Source of the DNA: Candidatus Scybalocola faecigallinarum
GTDB taxonomy: Bacteria; Bacillota; Clostridia; Lachnospirales; Lachnospiraceae
Length of the DNA: 64,000 bases
Direction: 5' to 3'
NCBI GenBank assembly: GCA_018711005.1
Contig: DVIT01000028.1
Span: 1 to 64,000, forward strand
Of the stretch, positions 1-10,944 are shown one piece after another (the stretch's first letter is position 1; each line of letters starts with the position of its first letter). The translations under genes and the position numbers were made by a program. The notes beneath the pieces are model-generated. The model was not told the origin of the DNA, ran no database searches, and saw nothing but the letters and a program-made list of their open reading frames with translations.

Positions 1-209
1 AAGTTCTGGGGCCTGCGCTTGCGGCTGTTCATAGCCGCCTGGCCTACCAGAACATTTCCATTGTCCTCCACAAACACTGCCGATGGGAGCGAATATTTGC
101 TTCCAAACATACTTGTGCCAGTAGCAATATCCACCGGCTTTATCTTTCCGCTTTCATCCAGCACGCAGATGCTGGAATAGCTTGTTCCTATATCAATTCC
201 CGCGATCAT
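1..209 (-). CDS. Hsp70/DnaK-like family protein, N-terminal part (runs off window)
   Basis: Reverse translation from ATG at 209: MIAGIDIGTSYSSICVLDESGKIKPVDIATGTSMFGSKYSLPSAVFVEDNGNVLVGQAAMNSRKRRPQN; Hsp70 phosphate-1 motif GIDIGTSYS and PSAVFVEDNGNVLVGQAA. Too short for the ORF track. Confidence 0.85.
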   Translation of the reverse strand, partial: MIAGIDIGTSYSSICVLDESGKIKPVDIATGTSMFGSKYSLPSAVFVEDNGNVLVGQAAMNSRKRRPQN

Positions 210-254
210 AAATCTCCCTCCAACAGTAACCAGACTTCTAAATAGCCGCACTGT

Positions 255-989
255 TCAGCGCGGGAGAGAAGCTCTGTATTCCATAACCTTATCCATAAAT
301 TCTTTTACATATTCTTCACAGACATCGCCGTAATCTATGTGCCCTTCCTTCAGCCAGCTTCCAATAATAACGCCATCCGCGTACTTTAATTTCTCGCAAA
401 CATTCCCGGAAGTCACACCAGCCCCTACGATCAAGGGAAATTCTTTCAATACTGTTCTGAATTGAAAGAGTTTTTCGCTGGGGCAATCCTTCCCGGTCCC
501 TTCACCTGTTGTCACTACGGCATCGCAGCGCTGACGCGCAAGCTCTGCATCCTTTTCAAGTGTCCTGCCGCTTCTTATAGGCTGATACTTAAACCGCAGA
601 CCGCCCAGGACCTGGAAAGTCCGATCTTTCATAAGGGACATTAACTCATCCCCATATACCGAATCCAGTCCGGGGGGCAAGTGCCCGCACACAGAATCAA
701 TCTGTATAAAGTCCGCATTGTACTTTCCCGCAAGTTCAAAGGCTTTTCTGTAATCCCCCAGGATATTCACGCCATATATCCTGTCCGGCATGTTTTTATG
801 CAGGTATTCAAGCCCTTGAATACAATGATCTGTATTTCCAAAATAGTTTTCTACTAAAACCGCATCTACGCCGTTCCTGTAGTAAATATCCGTTTCCTTT
901 ATCATCCGCTCCATGATTTCTCCATTTGATCTGCCTTTCAGATGAAGCATGGCAATAATAGGCTTTTCTTTAAAGTTCAGCACTTTCAT
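255..989 (-). CDS. BtpA/SgcQ family protein (TIM-barrel)
   Basis: 244 aa; KPIIAMLHLKG, DAVLVENYFGNTD, GAGVTSGNVCEKLKYADGVIIGSWLKEGH motifs typical of the BtpA family. Confidence 0.8.
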   Translation of the reverse strand: MKVLNFKEKPIIAMLHLKGRSNGEIMERMIKETDIYYRNGVDAVLVENYFGNTDHCIQGLEYLHKNMPDRIYGVNILGDYRKAFELAGKYNADFIQIDSVCGHLPPGLDSVYGDELMSLMKDRTFQVLGGLRFKYQPIRSGRTLEKDAELARQRCDAVVTTGEGTGKDCPSEKLFQFRTVLKEFPLIVGAGVTSGNVCEKLKYADGVIIGSWLKEGHIDYGDVCEEYVKEFMDKVMEYRASLPR

Positions 990-1054
990 TACCTCCCCAA
1001 TTTAAATATAACAAAATATTACAGCTCTGATCGCAATTTTATATTTGGCAATCT

Positions 1055-1294
1055 CTATTTCCTGTGGCCGCCCCTCCCCGGCCTGTCCTCATCAACCGGA
1101 GGCCCGGCATATACGCAAAGGGGCGGCGCCGGATCCACAAAATTTTCGGGTGTATTCCCGCCATTGGGAGCCGGCCCCTTCGTCTGCCCTGATGATTTTA
1201 CATAAGCCCCGTCCGCCGGATTTTTACGTCCAGGCACAGTCGGAGCAGCCTTCTTTTCCTTTTTTGATCCAAATATCCTTCCGAAAAATGACAT
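1055..1294 (-). CDS. Short peptide, candidate radical-SAM-modified precursor (MSFFGRIFGSKKEKK...PPLCVYAGPPVDEDRPGRGGHRK)
   Basis: The 133-aa ORF overlaps the rSAM gene; an internal ATG at 1294 has a strong SD (AAGGAGGAAT) inside the 3' end of the rSAM gene, giving 79 aa with a Lys-rich leader-like N-term, Pro/Gly-rich C-term and a single Cys. Confidence 0.6.
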   Translation of the reverse strand: MSFFGRIFGSKKEKKAAPTVPGRKNPADGAYVKSSGQTKGPAPNGGNTPENFVDPAPPLCVYAGPPVDEDRPGRGGHRK

Positions 1295-1295
1295 C

Positions 1296-2324
1296 TTAAA
1301 ATTCCTCCTTTTCCCTTGGACAACAGGGCGATTCATAAAGCTTCCCATGAACAAAATAGTTGTAGGAGCGGCATCCGCCCCGGCATATGCCGCCAAAGCT
1401 ACATGAAGCGCATTTTCCGGTAAGCAGCTCCGGCGAAAATTTTCGGTTATAGGCAAATGCGTTAGGATCTTCCCAGATCTGTCTTAAAGTCTTTTGTCTT
1501 AAATTTCCCTCGATAAAATCATCGGCATACATGGACTCGCATCCCCGCACATTTCCCACACTGTCAATGCCCAGGGTATGGATCCCGCCGCTGCAGCCGC
1601 AAAATCCGGTCTTTCCTGAAAGGGAGCCCCGGACATAGCCTTCCTCCGGCGTATAGTATCCTATATTATCCGCGGCATAAATGGGAAATGGCGATTTTGG
1701 CGCCTGCTCCCGGACAAAACGGAGCACACCGACAAAATCAAACCTGTGATCCACACCGGATATTGCCGCATTTCCCATAGGAGAGCATGCCTGAAGCTGC
1801 CATGCCCGTATGGGAAGTCTTTTGAGAAAATCATAAAACTTTGGCAGCATTTTTGTGTTTTCATGGTTTAAGGTAGAAATCACCGTCACAGGGATTTGGT
1901 TTTCTGACAACTCCCTGATCGCTTTTACAGCCCGGGCAAAGCTTCCCTTTTGGCGGTATCTGTCATGGACCTGCCGGGGACTGTCCAGAGATACGGCTAC
2001 GGATTCAATCCCTGTATTTTTCAATGCCCGGATATTTTCCCGGGAAAACAGCCATCCATTGGTAATGATACATGTCTTTATTCCCCGGCTGGTCAATGCC
2101 TTTACAATGGCTTCCCAATCCCTGCGCATAAAAACTTCCCCGCCAATAAGGGACACCCGCCTGCATCCCAGCTCATGAAGCTGCCGGGCCACATCCACAC
2201 ATTCCCCCGTACTAAGCTCATCTTTCCTGGCCCGCCCGCCGGACGAACCGCAGTATTTACATGAAAAACAGCAGGCCAGGGTCAGTTCCCATACACAGGA
2301 ACTTAATATGTATTTCTCCGCCAT
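1296..2324 (-). CDS. Radical SAM/SPASM domain protein
   Basis: N-term CX3CX2C (CCFSCKYC), LIGGEVFMR (GGE motif), C-term SPASM-like Cys set (CGCSGG..GCES..CASCSFGGICRGGC..CC). Confidence 0.9.
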   Translation of the reverse strand: MAEKYILSSCVWELTLACCFSCKYCGSSGGRARKDELSTGECVDVARQLHELGCRRVSLIGGEVFMRRDWEAIVKALTSRGIKTCIITNGWLFSRENIRALKNTGIESVAVSLDSPRQVHDRYRQKGSFARAVKAIRELSENQIPVTVISTLNHENTKMLPKFYDFLKRLPIRAWQLQACSPMGNAAISGVDHRFDFVGVLRFVREQAPKSPFPIYAADNIGYYTPEEGYVRGSLSGKTGFCGCSGGIHTLGIDSVGNVRGCESMYADDFIEGNLRQKTLRQIWEDPNAFAYNRKFSPELLTGKCASCSFGGICRGGCRSYNYFVHGKLYESPCCPREKEEF

Positions 2325-2339
2325 TTTTACACGCTCCTA

Positions 2340-3470
2340 TCATCTTTCCTTCAGGATCCCGCTGTTCCTGAAATATTTTTCCAGCCCATCCCTGGCCATG
2401 GAACGGTATTTCATGGGCAGCTCCACCTGGGTCAGCTTAGGGCACCAGGCAAAGGCAGCCTCCCCCAGCTCCACCTGCTCCGGAAGCTGGGCGGACTCAA
2501 GATTTTGGCATTTGCAAAAAGCGTTGGGATAAATATGGGTAACGCTTGAGGGGATCACCACGGATTTAAGCTGTTTCATATTAAAAAATGCCGCCGTATA
2601 AATGACCTTCACGGTTGGCGGAACGATACAGATCTCATCCTCATCCCGGAAGTTCCGGTACAGGACCCCATTTCGGATCAGCAGCCCGTGCTGGCGGGTG
2701 GAACCTTTTTTCGCCCGGAAGCGGCTGTCCCTTTTGGCCCACCACGCTTCCCTTTTCTTTTGGGCTTCCTCAAGTCCTTCCATATATTTCCTGTGATCCG
2801 GCGCTATATCATCAAACTCACGGCTTGAGTAAGACTCAAAGGTACAAATGTGATTAAAAAACTCGTCATACACATAATAATTATATTCTTCTTCCATGCC
2901 AAAGCCGTCCTCATCCGGCCCTTCATACCCGGCATAGGTCCGGTTATAATAACGGCCATATCCATCCCGGCCGTAAATGGAGATCTCCCCATCCGCTTCT
3001 CCCCGGAACTGGCTAAATCCTGCGCTGTGCCACAGTTTTTCCGGCATGCTGTCCCGGGAGATACGCTGACTGGTGTAATAGCTGGCATCAAAAAAAGATT
3101 CCGGAGAAAATAATCCGTAAAATATAGCCAGGGGATGGACTGAAAGCATATCCATGGCTCCCTGATTGCCAAACCAGGCCGCCCTGGCCAGCCATGTGTA
3201 CGCCACCATCAACGGCCAGCTTTCTTCCATATGCTTATTCATATAGACATCAAAAGCTTTCTGGGAGGAAGGACTGTAGTCACTGATGAGCATGGTTTCC
3301 AGATGCCTTAAATGAGAGGAAACCTGCCCTAAGAAATGCTCATACAGCTTCATCATCGCCCGGGTATCCCCCATGGCGCACTGGTGTGCCAGACGGTCTA
3401 TCTCTTCCTTTTTGTATCTGTCCCAGATGATTTCCACATAATCCTGCCACCATGGCCGATAATAACTCAT
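2340..3470 (-). CDS. Leucine-rich repeat (BspA/LRR_5-type) protein
   Basis: C-term IVPPTVKVIYTAAFFNMKQLKSVVIPSSVTHIYPNAFCKCQNLESAQLPEQV = LRR_5 repeats; N-term unassigned. Confidence 0.7.
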   Translation of the reverse strand: MSYYRPWWQDYVEIIWDRYKKEEIDRLAHQCAMGDTRAMMKLYEHFLGQVSSHLRHLETMLISDYSPSSQKAFDVYMNKHMEESWPLMVAYTWLARAAWFGNQGAMDMLSVHPLAIFYGLFSPESFFDASYYTSQRISRDSMPEKLWHSAGFSQFRGEADGEISIYGRDGYGRYYNRTYAGYEGPDEDGFGMEEEYNYYVYDEFFNHICTFESYSSREFDDIAPDHRKYMEGLEEAQKKREAWWAKRDSRFRAKKGSTRQHGLLIRNGVLYRNFRDEDEICIVPPTVKVIYTAAFFNMKQLKSVVIPSSVTHIYPNAFCKCQNLESAQLPEQVELGEAAFAWCPKLTQVELPMKYRSMARDGLEKYFRNSGILKER

Positions 3471-3503
3471 GATCCTTCCCCCTTTTTTTCTTCCACTAAA
3501 AAG

Positions 3504-5060
3504 CTATTCTTCCACTAAAGCATTCAGGTGATAATACATCTGCTCATAAGAGCGGGCCAGGGTTGACGCCGCCTCCACATAGGTTCCGGAAAGCATAAAT
3601 CCGCTGGCTTTTCCATGCCACAGGGCTACCTTCTCTCTGGCGGCCCCTTCAAGCTGGGCCACCGTGCTGCCTTTTGGCATCCCAAGACGGTCCTCCGGGC
3701 TTCTGCCGTATTCCCCTGTCACCCGGAGAAAATCCTCCTGCTCCCTGTCATCCGTAAATTTCAGCTGGCCATTATAGTAAAGCTGCAGCACCTTTAATTC
3801 CTTTAAGGTCTGCACTGAGGACATAAGATCATCAATATTTTCCAGGAGCTGCTCGCAGATCCCCCGCATCTGGCGCCCGGAAGCGCCATTTTTCCGGATC
3901 TGGGCGATCACTGAGCGGATGGTATTAAAAATATACCGGGTTTTGATGAGAAATGTCCGGTTTCCAAAATGGCTGAGCAAAATTTCCCGCACGGCCCGGA
4001 TCCCGCACTTTTCCTGAAGGATCTCCCCGATCTCCTCCCGGGTCTTATCTTCCCTAAGCTGACGGGCGATTTCAAGGATGCCGTACTGGCCCACCTGGCG
4101 GATCAGCTCCCTGCGGGCCTTCGGGGTACCCAGAGCCATATAGGCAGGTTCTGTGCTGTCCGCAAAGGTAGCCGCGTCAAAAAGCAGCTCTTCCAGCTCC
4201 TCCTGAGGGGTTTTTGAAATAAGCTTTAAAGCTTCCCAATCCTCATCCTTAAGGCCAAAATATCCTTCAACCACCTTGGCGCATACAGGAAATACAGAAA
4301 ACAGCAGTCCCTTGACATTGGGATTTTTCATCACATTATCTGTCACTGCCTTTCCCGCCTCAACAGGAGTCAGCCCGGAAAAAATGTCCCACACGCCGCC
4401 CATATCCACCTTGGTCAGGATCCCAAGGGAATTAATGGGGGACGAAGACTGGCCACCGCTGTGAAAGGCGTCCAGAATATCTTTATCAAAGCCTGCCACG
4501 GTTCGGTTAAAAGCATAGATCACCGCGTCTGCCATAGAAGTTTCATAAAGAGTGTCCTCCGAGCCCTGAAGGGCCAGAAAATCCATAGTATTTTGAGCGT
4601 CTGTGCCGTACACGGAATTAAGTCCCGGGGTATCAATAAATTCCAGCTGCTTTAATACCGGGCTGGGATAGTAAATGATCAGATACTTCACATCATTGAT
4701 CCTGGGATTTTCTTTCTCATAGGCCCGGACAGACCACCGCCCTAAATCAGAAAAAGGCGCCTCCAAAGTTGTCCCATCCCGAAAACAAACCGTAATGGAG
4801 GGGCTCTCTCCATATTTAAACCATCCCACCGTATAGGTGGTTTCCAGCTCTCCTGTATATAAAATATCCGCCCCCATAAGAGCGTTCATAAATGTAGACT
4901 TTCCCGCCTTCATGATCCCTGCCACAGCCACCCGAAGGGGGGATTCCAGGCGTCCCCGCAGCTCATCAATGGTTTTTAACAGCTCCCCGGCCTCCGGGCA
5001 GTCCCGGCACAGGCGGGAAGCATTATTTAAAAGGCTGTACACTTCTGATTTCAGCGACAT
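3504..5060 (-). CDS. Dynamin-like GTPase family protein
   Basis: Walker A GIMKAGKST, DTPGLNS, TKVD (GILTKVD). Confidence 0.85.
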   Translation of the reverse strand: MSLKSEVYSLLNNASRLCRDCPEAGELLKTIDELRGRLESPLRVAVAGIMKAGKSTFMNALMGADILYTGELETTYTVGWFKYGESPSITVCFRDGTTLEAPFSDLGRWSVRAYEKENPRINDVKYLIIYYPSPVLKQLEFIDTPGLNSVYGTDAQNTMDFLALQGSEDTLYETSMADAVIYAFNRTVAGFDKDILDAFHSGGQSSSPINSLGILTKVDMGGVWDIFSGLTPVEAGKAVTDNVMKNPNVKGLLFSVFPVCAKVVEGYFGLKDEDWEALKLISKTPQEELEELLFDAATFADSTEPAYMALGTPKARRELIRQVGQYGILEIARQLREDKTREEIGEILQEKCGIRAVREILLSHFGNRTFLIKTRYIFNTIRSVIAQIRKNGASGRQMRGICEQLLENIDDLMSSVQTLKELKVLQLYYNGQLKFTDDREQEDFLRVTGEYGRSPEDRLGMPKGSTVAQLEGAAREKVALWHGKASGFMLSGTYVEAASTLARSYEQMYYHLNALVEE

Positions 5061-5141
5061 GTATTCTCCCTCCTGTTATCTTTCCGCTGATCCCAGGGGC
5101 AGCTTGCGCCCCTGCCTGAGTCATCCGAAACGCTTGACGGG

Positions 5142-5966
5142 CTAATCAAACAGCGGATCCCTGCACACATATAAAATAACTTCCTGGCCCCGCAGGACCT
5201 TGCCCTTATACGCATATCCCGGGCGAAATACCTCCGCGATCTGATTATCCAGCAAAGGATCGTCCACCGGCTTTGTATCCACCACCGTATGGCGGCTGCT
5301 GTCAAACATGCCGTCATCCTCTAAAATCTCCACGCCTGCCTTTTTCAGCAGCTTTCCCGTTTCCCGAAGCTGCCCTTCCACCAGACGGGCGGCGCTGGCA
5401 TTATCCGGGTCATTATCCCGGATCCATTCCCGACGCATCAGGAGATTATCCCGCATCGCGATCACATTCAGGATCATGGCCTCACATTCCTCATCCTGAG
5501 AAGCGGACGCTGCTCCGTCTTCCGGATAGCCTGCGGCCATCCCGCCTTCCTGTGGGGCCGCAGCGGTTTTGCCCTGGGGTTCCCAGGCGTTTGAAGCGGC
5601 CAAGGACTGATCCTTTAATTTTTCCTCATACTCCCGGCGCAAAGCGTCCATTTCCTTTCTGTGCTTTTCCTGAAGCTGAGTCAGCTCATTTTCCATGGTC
5701 TTAAGACGGCGCTCATTTTCCTGGTAATTCCACTCGTCTAAGCGCAGATCCTCCAGGTTTCTTGCCGCCCGGCGGGCCTGGGATTCTAATGTATCCATAA
5801 ACCGGCACAGGTTCCGGTCATCGCACAGGCCTTCTAAAAATCCGGCAAAGCCTCCGGGCTTTTGGATCTGAGCCCTGCTCTTTTCAAGGCCGCACAGGTC
5901 AAAAACCTTATCCAGGCTTTCCCGAAGACTGTTCATGCTCTCATACCGATCTGCCATAATACGCTC
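5142..5966 (-). CDS. Coiled-coil protein with GrpE-like C-terminal domain
   Basis: C-term LLKKAGVEILEDDGMFDSSRHTVVDTKPVDDPLLDNQIAEVFRPGYAYKGKVLRGQEVILY resembles GrpE beta-wing (GV..i...G..FDP..H.av....d....tV.ev...GY...drvlRpa.V.V). Start likely MADRYESMNS (ORF track extends to 6026). Confidence 0.65.
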   Translation of the reverse strand, partial: ERIMADRYESMNSLRESLDKVFDLCGLEKSRAQIQKPGGFAGFLEGLCDDRNLCRFMDTLESQARRAARNLEDLRLDEWNYQENERRLKTMENELTQLQEKHRKEMDALRREYEEKLKDQSLAASNAWEPQGKTAAAPQEGGMAAGYPEDGAASASQDEECEAMILNVIAMRDNLLMRREWIRDNDPDNASAARLVEGQLRETGKLLKKAGVEILEDDGMFDSSRHTVVDTKPVDDPLLDNQIAEVFRPGYAYKGKVLRGQEVILYVCRDPLFD

Positions 5967-6028
5967 CTTCCATTTTGAAAGACAATGCCTTTTTCTGGTC
6001 GCTGAGCGGCCAGAAAAAGGGTGCATTT

Positions 6029-8059
6029 TTACAAAAATCCATACTCAATTTTTTCATCAGGCGCTGTATCTTTTTTCCCTTCACGGCTGTAAGGAGCCTC
6101 TGCTTTTTCTTCTTTTTCCTTCCGGGAATGTTCCGGAAGCATCACCGTCTCGCTGGTAACCTTTGTAAATGCGGTGATCTGCTCCTCCAGCGCCTCCTCA
6201 TCAGCGATCTGCCGGTTTACAGCATCGGACTGTTTTTTAAGCCCTGCCATTTTCCCAGGAATATCCGCCTTGGCCAGGTTAATATTTTTCTGAAGCTTTC
6301 CAATATTCTCCTGGATCTCCCGAACCCGCTTTTTAAGCATCAGTTCAAACTCTGTGGTCAGGCTCATGCGGATCTGGGCAATGGCATTGACCACAGACGT
6401 ATTTAAGGCAGTGATACTTGAAGAAATGTGTCCGCTGATGGCCCGGTTTACCACGCCAATATCCGGCTCATCGTACTTTTTCAAAGAATCAACGCAACCC
6501 TTAGTCGTGCCAAAGGCGCCTCCTATCGTAGCCCCTACCAGCTTTCCCGCCTCCAGGCCTACCGGCCCGCCCAGGCAGAATCCCACGATGCCTCCCAGGA
6601 TGCTTCCCACAGCGGTTCCGGCCATAGAGTTTATCCCGATCTTTCGCCCACCGGCCAGAAGCCGGTCTGTGGCCTTTTTCTTGGGAAAAATCACCTGGAG
6701 ACTGTCATTGGGAACAAAATCCAGCTTTTCCAGGGCATCCCGGTTCACCTGAACGTCCAGCCGCAGAGAAGACCGGATATCCCCGATTTCTTTCTCCAAG
6801 CCATTCGCCAAAGACTCCTTAATATCCAAAAGGCCGCAGATGATCATATCATTTATATCCGAAAGGATCTGAGTATAGACCGATTCCTGACAAATTTCCG
6901 TGCGCCGCTGAGTTACATTGGCATCCAGAAGGTTCCTGGCCCCTGCGGCAATCTCCTGAACCTTGCTGTTAGCCTCACTGGTCAGGGTTGTGCAAAAATA
7001 ATTCAGCTGATTCCGCCACTGAGCGCTGTTTTGCTGAAAATCCTCCAAATGACGGATCTCCTCATTTAAAGCATCCACCAGCTTTTTCGCCTTATCCTGG
7101 TCGGTATTTAAAAGCTGATACTGGGCGGCAATGCTGTCCGCCATTTTCAGCAGTTCTTCTTTTCCCTGAAGAAGAAACGGCAGGATCAGAATCCGGGCTC
7201 TGTTTTTGGCGATCATTCCCCAAAGAGCTTCCTCCAGCTGCCCAAAATTACTGTTCACGTACATAGCTGTATTATTCCGGGCAAGGGACCGCAGCTTTGC
7301 CGTGCCGGACACAGGAATGATCTGAAGTTCCTCCGCACAAATCCCCAGCTCACGGCGGATCTTTTCCCGGTTATCTTCAATAATCACCGAATAATCCGGA
7401 TTCAGATCCTTCTTAGTCACCGGAAAGATCATATTTTTACAATATTGATAGCCCCGCTTTAAAAATCCCACTTCCGTTTCCGTCAAGCCGGAATTGGTAT
7501 CTGTCACAAACAGAAGCATATCTGCATTGGGCAAAAAGCCGTAGGTGGCCTCTGCGTGGCTGATATTTAAACTTCCCACACCCGGGGTATCCACAAAAAC
7601 CACGCCTTCTTTTAAAAGCTCATTGGGAATGGAAATGTTCAGCAGCTTTACATTTTTATAATTATTGGGATTTCCTTTTTCTGACACATAATTTTCAATG
7701 TCACTTCTGGAAATGGACTCTTTTTTCACGCCGCTGCCATCCTCCACCCAGGCCTCAATATTTTCCTCTTTACCGTAGCGCACTACAGTGACTACATTGG
7801 TACACACATTGACATCCACGGGGAACAAAGGCTGCGTCTCCCCTAACAGGGCATTTAAAAGGGTAGACTTTCCCCGCCGGGCCTCCCCGGCAGCCACCAC
7901 CATTAATTCTTTTTTCTCAAATTCCTGATAAATCTCCCCAAGGGTCTGGGCTGAGGTTTCATATCCCAGCTTTTGGGCCAGCTCGCCCCACTGCTTTAAC
8001 AGCTTTCCCGCCTGATGCTTTAGTTCAAAAAATGATTTCATATGTATCTGCCTCCCCAT
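6029..8059 (-). CDS. Dynamin-like GTPase family protein with glycine-zipper segment
   Basis: Walker A AGEARRGKST, VFVDTPGVGS, VTKKD; Gly-rich GTAVGSILGGIVGFCLGGPVGLEAGKLVGATIGGAFG. Confidence 0.85.
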   Translation of the reverse strand: MGRQIHMKSFFELKHQAGKLLKQWGELAQKLGYETSAQTLGEIYQEFEKKELMVVAAGEARRGKSTLLNALLGETQPLFPVDVNVCTNVVTVVRYGKEENIEAWVEDGSGVKKESISRSDIENYVSEKGNPNNYKNVKLLNISIPNELLKEGVVFVDTPGVGSLNISHAEATYGFLPNADMLLFVTDTNSGLTETEVGFLKRGYQYCKNMIFPVTKKDLNPDYSVIIEDNREKIRRELGICAEELQIIPVSGTAKLRSLARNNTAMYVNSNFGQLEEALWGMIAKNRARILILPFLLQGKEELLKMADSIAAQYQLLNTDQDKAKKLVDALNEEIRHLEDFQQNSAQWRNQLNYFCTTLTSEANSKVQEIAAGARNLLDANVTQRRTEICQESVYTQILSDINDMIICGLLDIKESLANGLEKEIGDIRSSLRLDVQVNRDALEKLDFVPNDSLQVIFPKKKATDRLLAGGRKIGINSMAGTAVGSILGGIVGFCLGGPVGLEAGKLVGATIGGAFGTTKGCVDSLKKYDEPDIGVVNRAISGHISSSITALNTSVVNAIAQIRMSLTTEFELMLKKRVREIQENIGKLQKNINLAKADIPGKMAGLKKQSDAVNRQIADEEALEEQITAFTKVTSETVMLPEHSRKEKEEKAEAPYSREGKKDTAPDEKIEYGFL

Positions 8060-8131
8060 TGCTTTTTAACAGATGTTCAGGACGGCAGGAAAAAGCAAGA
8101 AGACGGGCCGTCCTGAACAGATGCGAATGTT

Positions 8132-8659
8132 TTATATATCCCGGCAAAAATATCCGTAAAACTTTTTATTGATCTTTAAATACTGAGGAAAATGCCCGGG
8201 CTCCATAAGCTTTGAAAACAGCCGGATCATTTCCTTTTCCCGCTCAAAAGGCCGGTTGGCCATGATAGCCGCTGCCATAGCATCGTAGCAGTCATACAGC
8301 TGCCCCCGCAGAGCCTCATATTCTTCCTTTGTATGTACATCATCCAGGGCCTTATGCTTAAAATACCCGGCCGGCTTTGTATAGTCGATGCCCTTCCACT
8401 CTGTCTGATAAGGATACACCGTAAAATCAATCAGCCGGTCCGGATTTTTAATAAGGATAGTGGCTGAGCAGTAAATGGGATAAATGGCGGTTTTTTCCTT
8501 TCCCGGCGTCCTGGAAAAATAAGGGATTGTCAACGCCAGCGCTTTTCCTGCCTGACGGATACATGGCCAGCCGGAGACCAGTCCCATGGGAATGGAACTT
8601 CTTCTGAAATCACTCCGGTTAAACTGCTTCACTATTTGAAAGATATTTATTTCACTCAT
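8132..8659 (-). CDS. Hypothetical protein (175 aa)
   Basis: Clean ORF co-directional with neighbours; no recognised motif. Confidence 0.65.
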   Translation of the reverse strand: MSEINIFQIVKQFNRSDFRRSSIPMGLVSGWPCIRQAGKALALTIPYFSRTPGKEKTAIYPIYCSATILIKNPDRLIDFTVYPYQTEWKGIDYTKPAGYFKHKALDDVHTKEEYEALRGQLYDCYDAMAAAIMANRPFEREKEMIRLFSKLMEPGHFPQYLKINKKFYGYFCRDI

Positions 8660-8710
8660 ATGACTCTCCTCCTGAATTATTCTCTCCTTACCCGTAGGTC
8701 TCTGCCATAA

Positions 8711-9823
8711 TTAAGCGTAGGCTTCTACCATAAAACAGCCGCTGTCTTCCCAGGCATCCACAAAAGCATCCATTGGGACCATGGCGCCGCCTCCATTGGA
8801 CGCCCCGGGATCATTAATGATCACCATAGGTTCTGCCGGATTACTGTAATCAATGCCGGTTACCTGGATGGCATGATCCGCGTCCATGCCCGGGCCAAAC
8901 ATTTCTTCATTTTCCCCGCTCCACAGCTCGCCGCTGTCAACCCCAACGATCACCTGTCCGCCGCTGGCCAGACACTGCTCAATATCAGACATGGTGCTGC
9001 CCATGTTCTGCTCCACATGTAACCCCATATGCGCCAGGATATTTCCCACATCCTCCATGGTCGTCCCGCCTTCCAGATCATACCAGCCATTTTCCTCTGC
9101 CAGCTCCCTTAATTCTCCTTCGGAAAATTCCTGTCCGGTCAGCTGCTCAAGGACAAATTCCTGGGATGCCACAGCGCAGCTGGTGCCTGTTTCCTGCCAG
9201 TGCCAGTTCTCCATGTTTCCCGCCGGATCTCCCACAATACTGTCCATATCCGCCTGAGAAGGATCAAAAGTTTCATAAGCCGGGGCCGCGCCGCTGTCCT
9301 CAGGATAAATGGGGGAATACTGATCCACCGGCTCCATGGTTCCGTTTCCGTCTGTATCCATAAATTCTCCGGAAGCCTCAAAAATCCCGTCCCCGTTATA
9401 ATCCTCCGCTGTAATCATGTAATCTGCCTGGCCGTCTCCATTAAAATCCGAAACCGTTGTGGCAGAATAATAATCCATGATCCCATCCAGGTCTGTATCC
9501 GACGCAATCTCCGTCTGCACCGTATCCACAATGCCGTCTCCGTCCAGATCCAGCTGCTGCTCCACCACCAGGGTCTCCGCGATTCCGTCCCCATTTAAGT
9601 CCTCCTGGGACTGAAACAGCAGTCCATCCATGATCCCATCCCCATCCAGGTCCACCGGCGTACCGGCGCTGACCGGCTGGTACATTTCCATAGGATCCTG
9701 GTCTGCGTGCTGAGGCTGGTACATCTCCATAGGATCCTGATCTGCGTGCTGGGGCTGATACATCTCAAGATCATCATCTCCGCCATCGCCTAAACCGATC
9801 AAATCTAAAAAATCTTCAAACAT
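8711..9823 (-). CDS. Ca-binding-loop (DxDGDG) repeat protein with C39/papain-like cysteine protease domain
   Basis: Tandem EMYQPQHADQDPM repeats; DLDGDGIMDG / DLNGDGIAET / DLDGDGIVDT / DFNGDGQADY / DYNGDGIFEA loops; C-term ETGTSCAVASQEFVLEQLTG ... DHAIQVTGIDYSNP...VIINDPG (Cys ... His ... Asp/Asn order). No signal peptide visible. Confidence 0.75.
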   Translation of the reverse strand: MFEDFLDLIGLGDGGDDDLEMYQPQHADQDPMEMYQPQHADQDPMEMYQPVSAGTPVDLDGDGIMDGLLFQSQEDLNGDGIAETLVVEQQLDLDGDGIVDTVQTEIASDTDLDGIMDYYSATTVSDFNGDGQADYMITAEDYNGDGIFEASGEFMDTDGNGTMEPVDQYSPIYPEDSGAAPAYETFDPSQADMDSIVGDPAGNMENWHWQETGTSCAVASQEFVLEQLTGQEFSEGELRELAEENGWYDLEGGTTMEDVGNILAHMGLHVEQNMGSTMSDIEQCLASGGQVIVGVDSGELWSGENEEMFGPGMDADHAIQVTGIDYSNPAEPMVIINDPGASNGGGAMVPMDAFVDAWEDSGCFMVEAYA

Positions 9824-10026
9824 ACAAGACGCTCCTTTCCTGCTGTGTTTCCCACAGCATATATACTTTGTTTAGATAAACTTATTGTACTATCCGGAAA
9901 AAAATCTGTCTTAAATACGGAAAATTCGGATATGGATCCGGAAAAAACGGCGCCTTTATCACAAAAAGAGCTGGCCCATAAAGGCAGGCCATATTCCTAA
10001 AAACCTGTCTGCGATCGATCCATTCC

Positions 10027-10755
10027 TTACGTTTCCGAATGAATAAATCGCTCATATATCTCCTTTGCCTGGCTGTACATCCGCCGGCTGATCAGGATCT
10101 CCTCATTGGAATATAAAATAAATACATGATTTTTTGTGTCCAAACATCGGATCATGTGCATGTTTACAATATAGCTTTGGTGGCATCTTAAGAAAAAATC
10201 CGGCAAAACCTTTCCTATATCATCCAGTTTTGCGGTAAATATGTAATTTCTGGCATTTCTGGTCTGATACAAAATCACCTTTTTAGCATTACTTTCAAAA
10301 TAACAAATCTCGTCAAAAGGCAGACGCATTTGCTCACCTTCAAATTTAAACGGAAAATACAGTTTTCGTTCCTGCTTCTGGTGCCAGGCCACCAGCACCT
10401 TTAAACACTGTAAAATCTGTTCAGATGCATTAGGATCGCTGATAAACCCGGATGGCCGGATGAAAAGGGTCTTCACGAGGCCGGAAATATCCGGTCCCAT
10501 ATACACCCAGGAGCCTCTCAGACTGCAGTCCCTGAAATAGGCCGCCAGCTTAAATCCAAGTTCATACCGGGAAAAATCAACGAAAAAAATATCTTCCTCT
10601 GAAGCAGACTTTAAAAGATATTTCGCCGCATCTTCAAATTTTGCGCAAGCCATCAGTCGGAAGGTAATCCGCTCCCTTCGGAAATATCCTGCCATGGTTT
10701 CATATATCTGCTTTAAGCGATCCATTTTTTCATAATAGATAAACACACGTACCAT
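10027..10755 (-). CDS. LytTR DNA-binding domain transcriptional regulator
   Basis: C-term FPFDEICYFESNAKKVILYQ...DDIGKVLPDFFLRCHQSYIVNMHMI...ILISRRMYSQAKEIYERF is LytTR. Start MVRVFIYYEK chosen over upstream extension. Confidence 0.8.
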   Translation of the reverse strand: MVRVFIYYEKMDRLKQIYETMAGYFRRERITFRLMACAKFEDAAKYLLKSASEEDIFFVDFSRYELGFKLAAYFRDCSLRGSWVYMGPDISGLVKTLFIRPSGFISDPNASEQILQCLKVLVAWHQKQERKLYFPFKFEGEQMRLPFDEICYFESNAKKVILYQTRNARNYIFTAKLDDIGKVLPDFFLRCHQSYIVNMHMIRCLDTKNHVFILYSNEEILISRRMYSQAKEIYERFIHSET

Positions 10756-10944
10756 TGCGTCAGTCCTCCTGATATTGACCATATACGTACAAGACGTCTC
10801 TGACAAGGGAAGGACGGCAAAATATAATATACGGCGGCAAAAAATTATTTCTGTACACAGATAAGCAATAACCTGCACTCACCCCTGTAAAAATTTTTCT
10901 TCGTATTGACTTTTCCCCCAAATCGTGATAACCTTATAAAATCT

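Follow-up and report, generated by a model that had tools for sequence, protein, structure and literature searches.

Organisation of the locus

The window analysed here, 64,000 nucleotides that make up the first 64 kb of a contig (C62) of the Lachnospiraceae genome Candidatus Scybalocola faecigallinarum, opens at positions 1–9823 with a block of ten co-directional open reading frames (ORFs) on the minus strand. All ten were confirmed by an ORF check, and the tight spacing reported in a preliminary description of the window, made from its sequence, is borne out by intergenic gaps of 0–81 bp. With the regulator gene that precedes the block, the order is LytTR-domain regulator, C39-like cysteine protease, a conserved protein that we term U9, a first dynamin-like GTPase (Dyn1), a GrpE-like protein, a second dynamin-like GTPase (Dyn2), a leucine-rich repeat (LRR) protein, a radical SAM enzyme, a 79-aa peptide, a BtpA-family protein and the start of an Hsp70. 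Pfam matches support the identities first proposed for the Hsp70-like, GrpE-like and cysteine-protease-like proteins, the two dynamins, the LRR_5 protein and the radical SAM/SPASM enzyme. No direct upstream extension was possible, because base 1 is the end of the contig. All features described below lie on the minus strand.

A core of seven genes and its relatives in other families and phyla

When GTDB contigs were scanned with Dyn1, a single relative was returned, in Candidatus Mediterraneibacter stercoripullorum (L078, here called the sibling locus), where the order is LytTR, C39, U9, Dyn1, GrpE, Dyn2, LRR, metallophosphoesterase and Hsp70, after which come genes for a protein of 365 aa and a Ser/Thr kinase. 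A C39 profile led to a genome from another family of the same class (G960), in which LytTR, Hsp70, C39, U9, Dyn1, GrpE and Dyn2 lie on one strand with gaps of −1 to 78 bp, at identities of 42, 47, 54, 57, 42, 33 and 54%, respectively. Because this operon holds these seven genes and no others, we define them as the core. Two observations argue against a chance grouping: between the window and the sibling the core genes show purifying selection (dN/dS 0.05–0.23), and the arrangement is met again in other families and phyla. Gene calls in unannotated contigs came from a simple ORF picker and were checked by profile hits; the family searches covered part of each taxon, and several loci come from draft or metagenome assemblies.

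Outside the Bacillota, a Dyn2 search of plasmid records reached a full-length homologue on the Anabaena plasmid pANA01, which encodes in succession on one strand an Hsp70 consisting of the ATPase domain only (E = 6e-64), two DO-GTPase-like proteins, two unknown proteins, a C39 protein with DxDGDG motifs (6e-72), U9 (9e-16), Dyn1 (2e-94) and Dyn2 (5e-107). In the actinobacterium Nonomuraea the order is Dyn2, GrpE, Dyn1 and Hsp70, and the GrpE passes the Pfam cut-off and carries an N-terminal transmembrane segment. The Hsp70 of this locus (L178:15617–17017) is fused to a CD225 (IFITM-family) domain, and caspase-domain genes flank the dynamin, GrpE and Hsp70 genes on both sides. Rhodococcus plasmids carry either Dyn1, a short transmembrane GrpE-like protein, Dyn2 and Hsp70, or Dyn1, Dyn2 and Hsp70, with a C39 gene, a separate DxDGDG-repeat protein and a sigma factor of the extracytoplasmic function (ECF) type nearby. 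Dyn1 lies 5.5–10.9 kb from the C39 gene in every one of the 26 records of actinobacterial plasmids that carry the latter; as many of these plasmids are closely related, the 26 records represent few independent events. A record listing also places C39 and dynamin genes on plasmids of about 120 kb from animal and human isolates of Prescottella equi. Independent occurrences are found in Bacillota (at least two families), in Cyanobacteriota and, within Actinomycetota, in Nocardiaceae and Nonomuraea. Co-occurrence in other genomes had been set beforehand as a test of the grouping, and the dedicated Hsp70/GrpE pair proposed to be linked to a dynamin pair proved to be real and conserved.

The family is rare and patchy: the C39 protein was found in 8 of 358 Lachnospiraceae genomes (the window's own and one weak match included) and in 3 of 291 Clostridia genomes, again counting the window's own, and IMG/VR scans with C39 and with Dyn2 gave no match. 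Further Lachnospiraceae combine the C39/LytTR pair with other parts, namely three dynamins (G275), a HerA-like ATPase and dynamins (G255, G322), HerA with Hsp70-LRR and Hsp70-Sel1 proteins (G015, G342), or HerA, Hsp70s and dynamins (G225). At the end of one contig (L141, contig C68 of G934) a LytTR-C39 pair lies directly downstream of conjugation-like genes, and the contig ends there; the position suggests that this pair may be carried by an integrative element.

Two other clusters stand apart. A second GrpE-Hsp70-J/SEC-C-like cassette in another genome of the window's genus (L088:10227–14183) was rejected as a relative, having no dynamins and an Hsp70 frame interrupted by a stop codon. Lachnospiraceae dynamin triads (L031, L032, L079) were likewise rejected, since an M48 protein rather than GrpE lies between the dynamins; with L080, these form a separate recurring cluster of three dynamins, an M48-type peptidase and zinc-ribbon proteins. 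In Nocardia farcinica (L179:6022–12269) an IniA/IniC-like dynamin pair lies directly upstream of a canonical dnaK-grpE-dnaJ operon.

Hsp70 proteins without a substrate-binding domain

The Hsp70 gene enters the window with its 5′ end (1–209), and since the contig ends there the fragment falls below the PF00012 cut-off (E = 4.7e-4 over 69 residues). An exact 92-bp overlap continues it into contig C43, where it is completed as a gene for a protein of 671 aa and the next gene encodes a 781-aa Hsp70-Sel1 protein; on contig C19 lie the tail end of an RCC1/Sel1 version and the first part of a further copy. The join between C62 and C43 rests on this assembly overlap, and the array was traced through contig ends. 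Contigs C19 and C43 (L175, 3332 bp, and L176, 5408 bp) have the appearance of a collapsed tandem Hsp70 array, in which near-identical ATPase domains are joined to tails of the Sel1, RCC1 or other types; there is a 72-bp overlap of C19 with itself.

The window genome encodes several Hsp70 copies whose ATPase domains are near-identical and whose tails have diverged. Against the sibling, the ATPase domains are 84–96% identical across copies, and for the first copy the ATPase domain is 94% identical and the tail only 28%. The ATPase domain looks intact (PF00012 1e-53, nucleotide motifs present), and in every member examined the Pfam HSP70 match stops at profile position ~340–377 of 599. All the Hsp70s examined lack the substrate-binding domain, and a search for the VLLLD-type hydrophobic linker pattern did not find it. 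The place of that domain is taken by Sel1, LRR_5, RCC1, a conserved tail (with no Pfam match) or a CD225/transmembrane segment, LRR_5 being fused to Hsp70 in L128, for example. A PH-like fold is a tentative candidate for the tails without a Pfam family, on their sequence pattern. The Hsp70 is thus not the ordinary chaperone first supposed, as it has no substrate-binding domain; by its domain architecture, it is a conserved motor joined to an exchanged part with a putative role in recognition. A canonical grpE with an adjacent Hsp70 is present separately in the window genome, on contig C61.

The GrpE-like protein and the dynamin pair

The GrpE-like protein (5142–5957) combines a helical N-terminal half with a GrpE domain that passes the Pfam cut-off (PF01025 9e-12; 45.4 bits against a curated cut-off of 25.8). 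Alignment with the sibling places its start probably at 5957 rather than 6026. The G960 orthologue scores 46.6 bits (3.8e-12) and that of Nonomuraea 38.2 bits, so that the GrpE domain has Pfam support in three independent loci, and a profile of the window protein finds E. coli GrpE in the PDB (1dkg) at 2.9e-4. In this respect the preliminary assignment withstood comparison by hidden Markov model. A low-confidence AlphaFold2 model has a long helix, a helix pair and C-terminal strands. When 392 genomes of the order were searched with a GrpE profile, the matches were weak and nearly all fell in ORFs of about 160–260 aa, the size of ordinary GrpE; none was of the long type found in the window. In Actinobacteria, both the GrpE-like protein and Hsp70 bear transmembrane segments.

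On either side of GrpE lie Dyn1 (6029–8041; Dynamin_N 9.9e-24) and Dyn2 (3504–5060; Dynamin_N 3.7e-17), adjacent dynamins in which the G1, G3 and G4 GTPase motifs are intact. Dyn1, which by alignment with the sibling probably starts at 8041 rather than 8059, has a glycine-rich hydrophobic segment at residues 472–496, and its closest solved relative is IniA (6j72, 1.3e-30). Dyn2 would be the soluble partner; it is 95% identical to the sibling protein and, over the full length, 32% identical to the Anabaena homologue (2e-79), and it is closest to a Campylobacter dynamin-like protein (Cj-DLP).

The C39-like protease and U9

The C39-like cysteine protease (8711–9823), a protein of 370 aa, matches only PF13529 (Peptidase_C39_2) above the cut-off, at 1.5e-6. 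Having no hydrophobic or signal segment, it would be cytosolic. The window protein is 92% identical to that of the sibling, and the active-site Q/C/H/D residues are retained in it and in most members of the alignment. Its N-terminal part holds seven DxDGDG-type, Ca-loop-like repeats (9341–9652); there are two in the sibling, nine in G960 and two in Anabaena, and in Rhodococcus the repeats form a separate neighbouring gene, such that they are fused to the protease in some lineages and separate in others. U9 (8132–8659), a conserved core protein of 175 aa, is 91% identical to its counterpart in the sibling; it matched no Pfam or NCBIfam family, and its AlphaFold2 model has a pLDDT of 34.

Regulation and accessory genes

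The LytTR-domain transcriptional regulator (10027–10782) is a core gene in Clostridia, 85% identical to that of the sibling, which itself matches PF04397 at 1.1e-20 and is 42% identical to the regulator heading the G960 operon; on this comparison, it belongs with the block. In the 203-bp gap between it and the C39 gene lies a promoter-like site (AAGACA-17-TACAAT; 9884–9912), recognised by match to the consensus only, whose sequence context is also present in the sibling and which is a candidate promoter for the operon. Twenty promoter-like sites were counted against a shuffle expectation of 14.5 ± 4.0, not clearly above it, and several independent promoters are not indicated. Between Dyn1 and GrpE lies a strong hairpin of 15 bp (5988–6020), with another at the equivalent position in the sibling (~9828–9860); its presence in both suggests a conserved intercistronic RNA structure. 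The stems differ in sequence between the two loci.

The remaining genes, some of which the preliminary description had counted as parts of the system, are accessory rather than core, judged by their distribution. The LRR_5 protein (2340–3470; PF13306 2.9e-14) is 75.5% identical to the copy in the sibling, and neither G960 nor Anabaena has it at the locus. The radical SAM/SPASM enzyme (1296–2324; PF04055 8.6e-29, SPASM 4e-6) falls well under the cut-off of its best NCBIfam model, is without a close counterpart in three further genomes of the genus, and is absent from the sibling locus and, with the peptide, from G960 and Anabaena. It is followed by the 79-aa peptide (1055–1294), which ends in PPLCVYAGPPVDEDRPGRGGHRK, matches no Pfam or NCBIfam family and was found in one genome only; its C-terminal region includes CVYAGPPVDEDRPGRGGHRK. 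The peptide could be the substrate of the enzyme, that is, a precursor of a ribosomally synthesised and post-translationally modified peptide (RiPP). A BtpA-family TIM-barrel protein (255–989; PF03437 2.6e-23) had been missed in the first naming of the genes. In the sibling a metallophosphoesterase fills the slot taken here by enzyme, peptide and BtpA, and since all three are missing there, we regard them as a replaceable cassette.

Relation to known systems

The nearest precedent is the HSP70 and GrpE theme of the GAP1-N2 DO-GTPase conflict systems (Kaur et al., 2020; PMC7159879), the defining DO-GTPase and GAP1 of which are absent from the window. Common to both are the combination of a GTPase with HSP70 and GrpE, proximity to the membrane, variable components and occurrence in Firmicutes and Actinobacteria, and the described systems sometimes have a second HSP70 without a peptide-binding domain, as in the window (PMC7159879). 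The GTPases of the window, however, are dynamins, and there is no GAP1 and no FNIII protein; the C39 protein, U9 and the dynamin pair fall outside the published description, in which the word dynamin does not occur (PMC7159879). DO-GTPase models (PF19975/PF19993) matched no window protein and matched the Anabaena relative at 2.7e-15, whilst GAP1 had no Pfam match among the window proteins or the scanned sibling proteins. Since the Anabaena relative carries DO-GTPases inside its locus, the two kinds of system are connected.

Paired bacterial dynamins such as Cj-DLP1/2, BDLP and the IniA/IniC proteins of iniBAC resemble the window in that two unlike dynamins, one of them bearing a hydrophobic segment, are encoded side by side, but no Hsp70, GrpE or C39 partner has been described for them. 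Beside the window dynamins there are only the U9 and GrpE ORFs and no IniB, the similarity being IniA-like only. LeoABC likewise contains dynamin-like GTPases, to which the scores are weak, and differs in having no Hsp70, GrpE or C39. With canonical DnaK-DnaJ-GrpE the window shares the Hsp70 ATPase and GrpE domains, but not the substrate-binding domain, the VLLLD-type linker or a J-protein. The C39 protein has PF13529 and the Q/C/H/D residues in common with other Peptidase C39-like proteins, and differs in its DxDGDG fusion and its place in the operon; no ABC transporter is fused to it, in contrast to bacteriocin-processing C39 transporters. As first supposed, no named system of this composition emerged: the literature searched, which left most subscription journals and all preprints outside it, contains no description of one. 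There is a reasonable chance that the system represents a new class.

A proposed mechanism and its alternatives

The existence of a conserved unit is well supported, and its function is most likely that of a remodelling system responsive to membrane stress or to invaders. In the mechanism we propose, the Hsp70s would serve as receptors switched by ATP, and their exchangeable C-terminal modules (Sel1, LRR, RCC1, the conserved tail or CD225/transmembrane segments) may bind different triggers or membrane sites. GrpE, encoded between the dynamins, would reset the nucleotide state of Hsp70 and link that state to whether the Dyn1/Dyn2 complex is assembled or taken apart. Cleavage of a partner by the C39 protease would release or terminate the response; the protease would be gated by its DxDGDG loops, for instance when divalent ions enter through a damaged envelope. 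Finally Dyn1, with its hydrophobic segment, and Dyn2 would reshape or seal the membrane of the cell, and in this way shield it from envelope damage or postpone lysis by phage. We infer all four steps and the trigger from DynA, IniA, dynamin-like protein pairs and NTP-dependent conflict systems: DynA protects membranes and postpones lysis by phage (PMC8844932), IniA carries out membrane fission and has been linked to drug tolerance (PMC6715688) and paired dynamin-like proteins form hetero-oligomers (PMC6104087). We give an even chance to this account as a whole, that is, an undescribed conserved system of Hsp70 without substrate-binding domain, GrpE, C39, U9, a dynamin pair and a dedicated regulator, working in these four steps.

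Several observations weigh against it. The sequence of the GrpE-like protein is divergent and the model predicted for it has low confidence (pLDDT 63); its Rhodococcus counterparts fall below the Pfam cut-off (PF01025 1e-4), the Anabaena locus shows no GrpE and the window operon has no J-domain partner. Within the stretches read, no dynamin was seen at the C39/LytTR/Hsp70 loci of G015 and G342. In one homologue of C39 (L084) the active-site Cys is no longer present, so that not all members may be proteolytic, and calcium binding by the DxDGDG repeats is a candidate property read from the motif alone. The PADLOC similarity of the dynamins to LeoA/LeoBC is only weak (Dyn1 1e-16 and 6e-15; Dyn2 1e-6).

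A serious contender, though we think it will probably prove wrong, is an abortive-infection defence in which the Hsp70 receptors would recognise invader proteins, C39 would start a proteolytic cascade, and the dynamins would disrupt the membrane of the infected cell rather than repair it. This would suit the diversified receptor tails on near-identical ATPase domains, the caspase-domain neighbours and CD225 fusion in Nonomuraea, the DO-GTPases of known conflict systems inside the Anabaena locus, carriage on plasmids and the position of the L141 C39/LytTR pair, and the same logic of chaperone NTPase, GTPase and protease is described by Kaur et al. (2020; PMC7159879). However, the core holds no obvious killer domain, the dynamin precedents protect membranes (PMC8844932, PMC6715688), and IMG/VR and PADLOC gave no matches beyond the weak Leo similarity. 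A more specific and somewhat doubtful possibility is a new prokaryotic class of immunity or membrane surveillance, in which tandem Hsp70 receptors with swapped modules, functionally akin to NLR/STAND proteins, would be reset by a dedicated GrpE and would trigger the dynamin pair through a Ca-gated C39 protease.

It is unlikely that the chaperone components drive assembly and disassembly of a dynamin coat, much as Hsc70 uncoats clathrin, in a constitutive envelope, vesicle or sporulation role rather than in stress or defence. The position of GrpE between both dynamins in Bacillota, Rhodococcus and Nonomuraea, the strong purifying selection and the IniA/IniC-like pair beside the canonical operon of Nocardia would fit such a role, but housekeeping genes would not normally be patchily distributed, carried on plasmids or accompanied by diversified Hsp70 tails, and a J-protein and substrate-binding domain are lacking. 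It is very improbable that the block is a RiPP locus, with the other genes serving self-protection or export: the short ORF does start 1 bp after the radical SAM/SPASM gene, but the core is complete without the two in the sibling, G960 and Anabaena, no exporter lies in the block and C39 has no ABC transporter fusion, which contradicts this reading for the core and leaves it as one that could hold only for the accessory cassette. That unrelated genes are neighbours by chance, which would explain why accessory genes differ between loci, is refuted for the core by the same core order at 33–57% identity in another family, by its occurrence in three phyla and by the 26 of 26 plasmid co-localisations.

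Returning to the stress- or invader-responsive remodelling system that we favour, the context is one in which bacterial dynamins occur mostly as gene pairs, the control of which is poorly understood. A dynamin pair linked to Hsp70/GrpE and a protease, as seen in Bacillota, Cyanobacteriota and Actinomycetota, offers candidate regulators of dynamins and a testable unit of seven genes. If the proposal is true, Hsp70 would have been adopted, unexpectedly, as a receptor, its ATPase domain carrying interchangeable recognition modules in place of the substrate-binding domain; the fusion to CD225 and the neighbouring caspase-domain genes hint at a connection with antiviral membrane biology.

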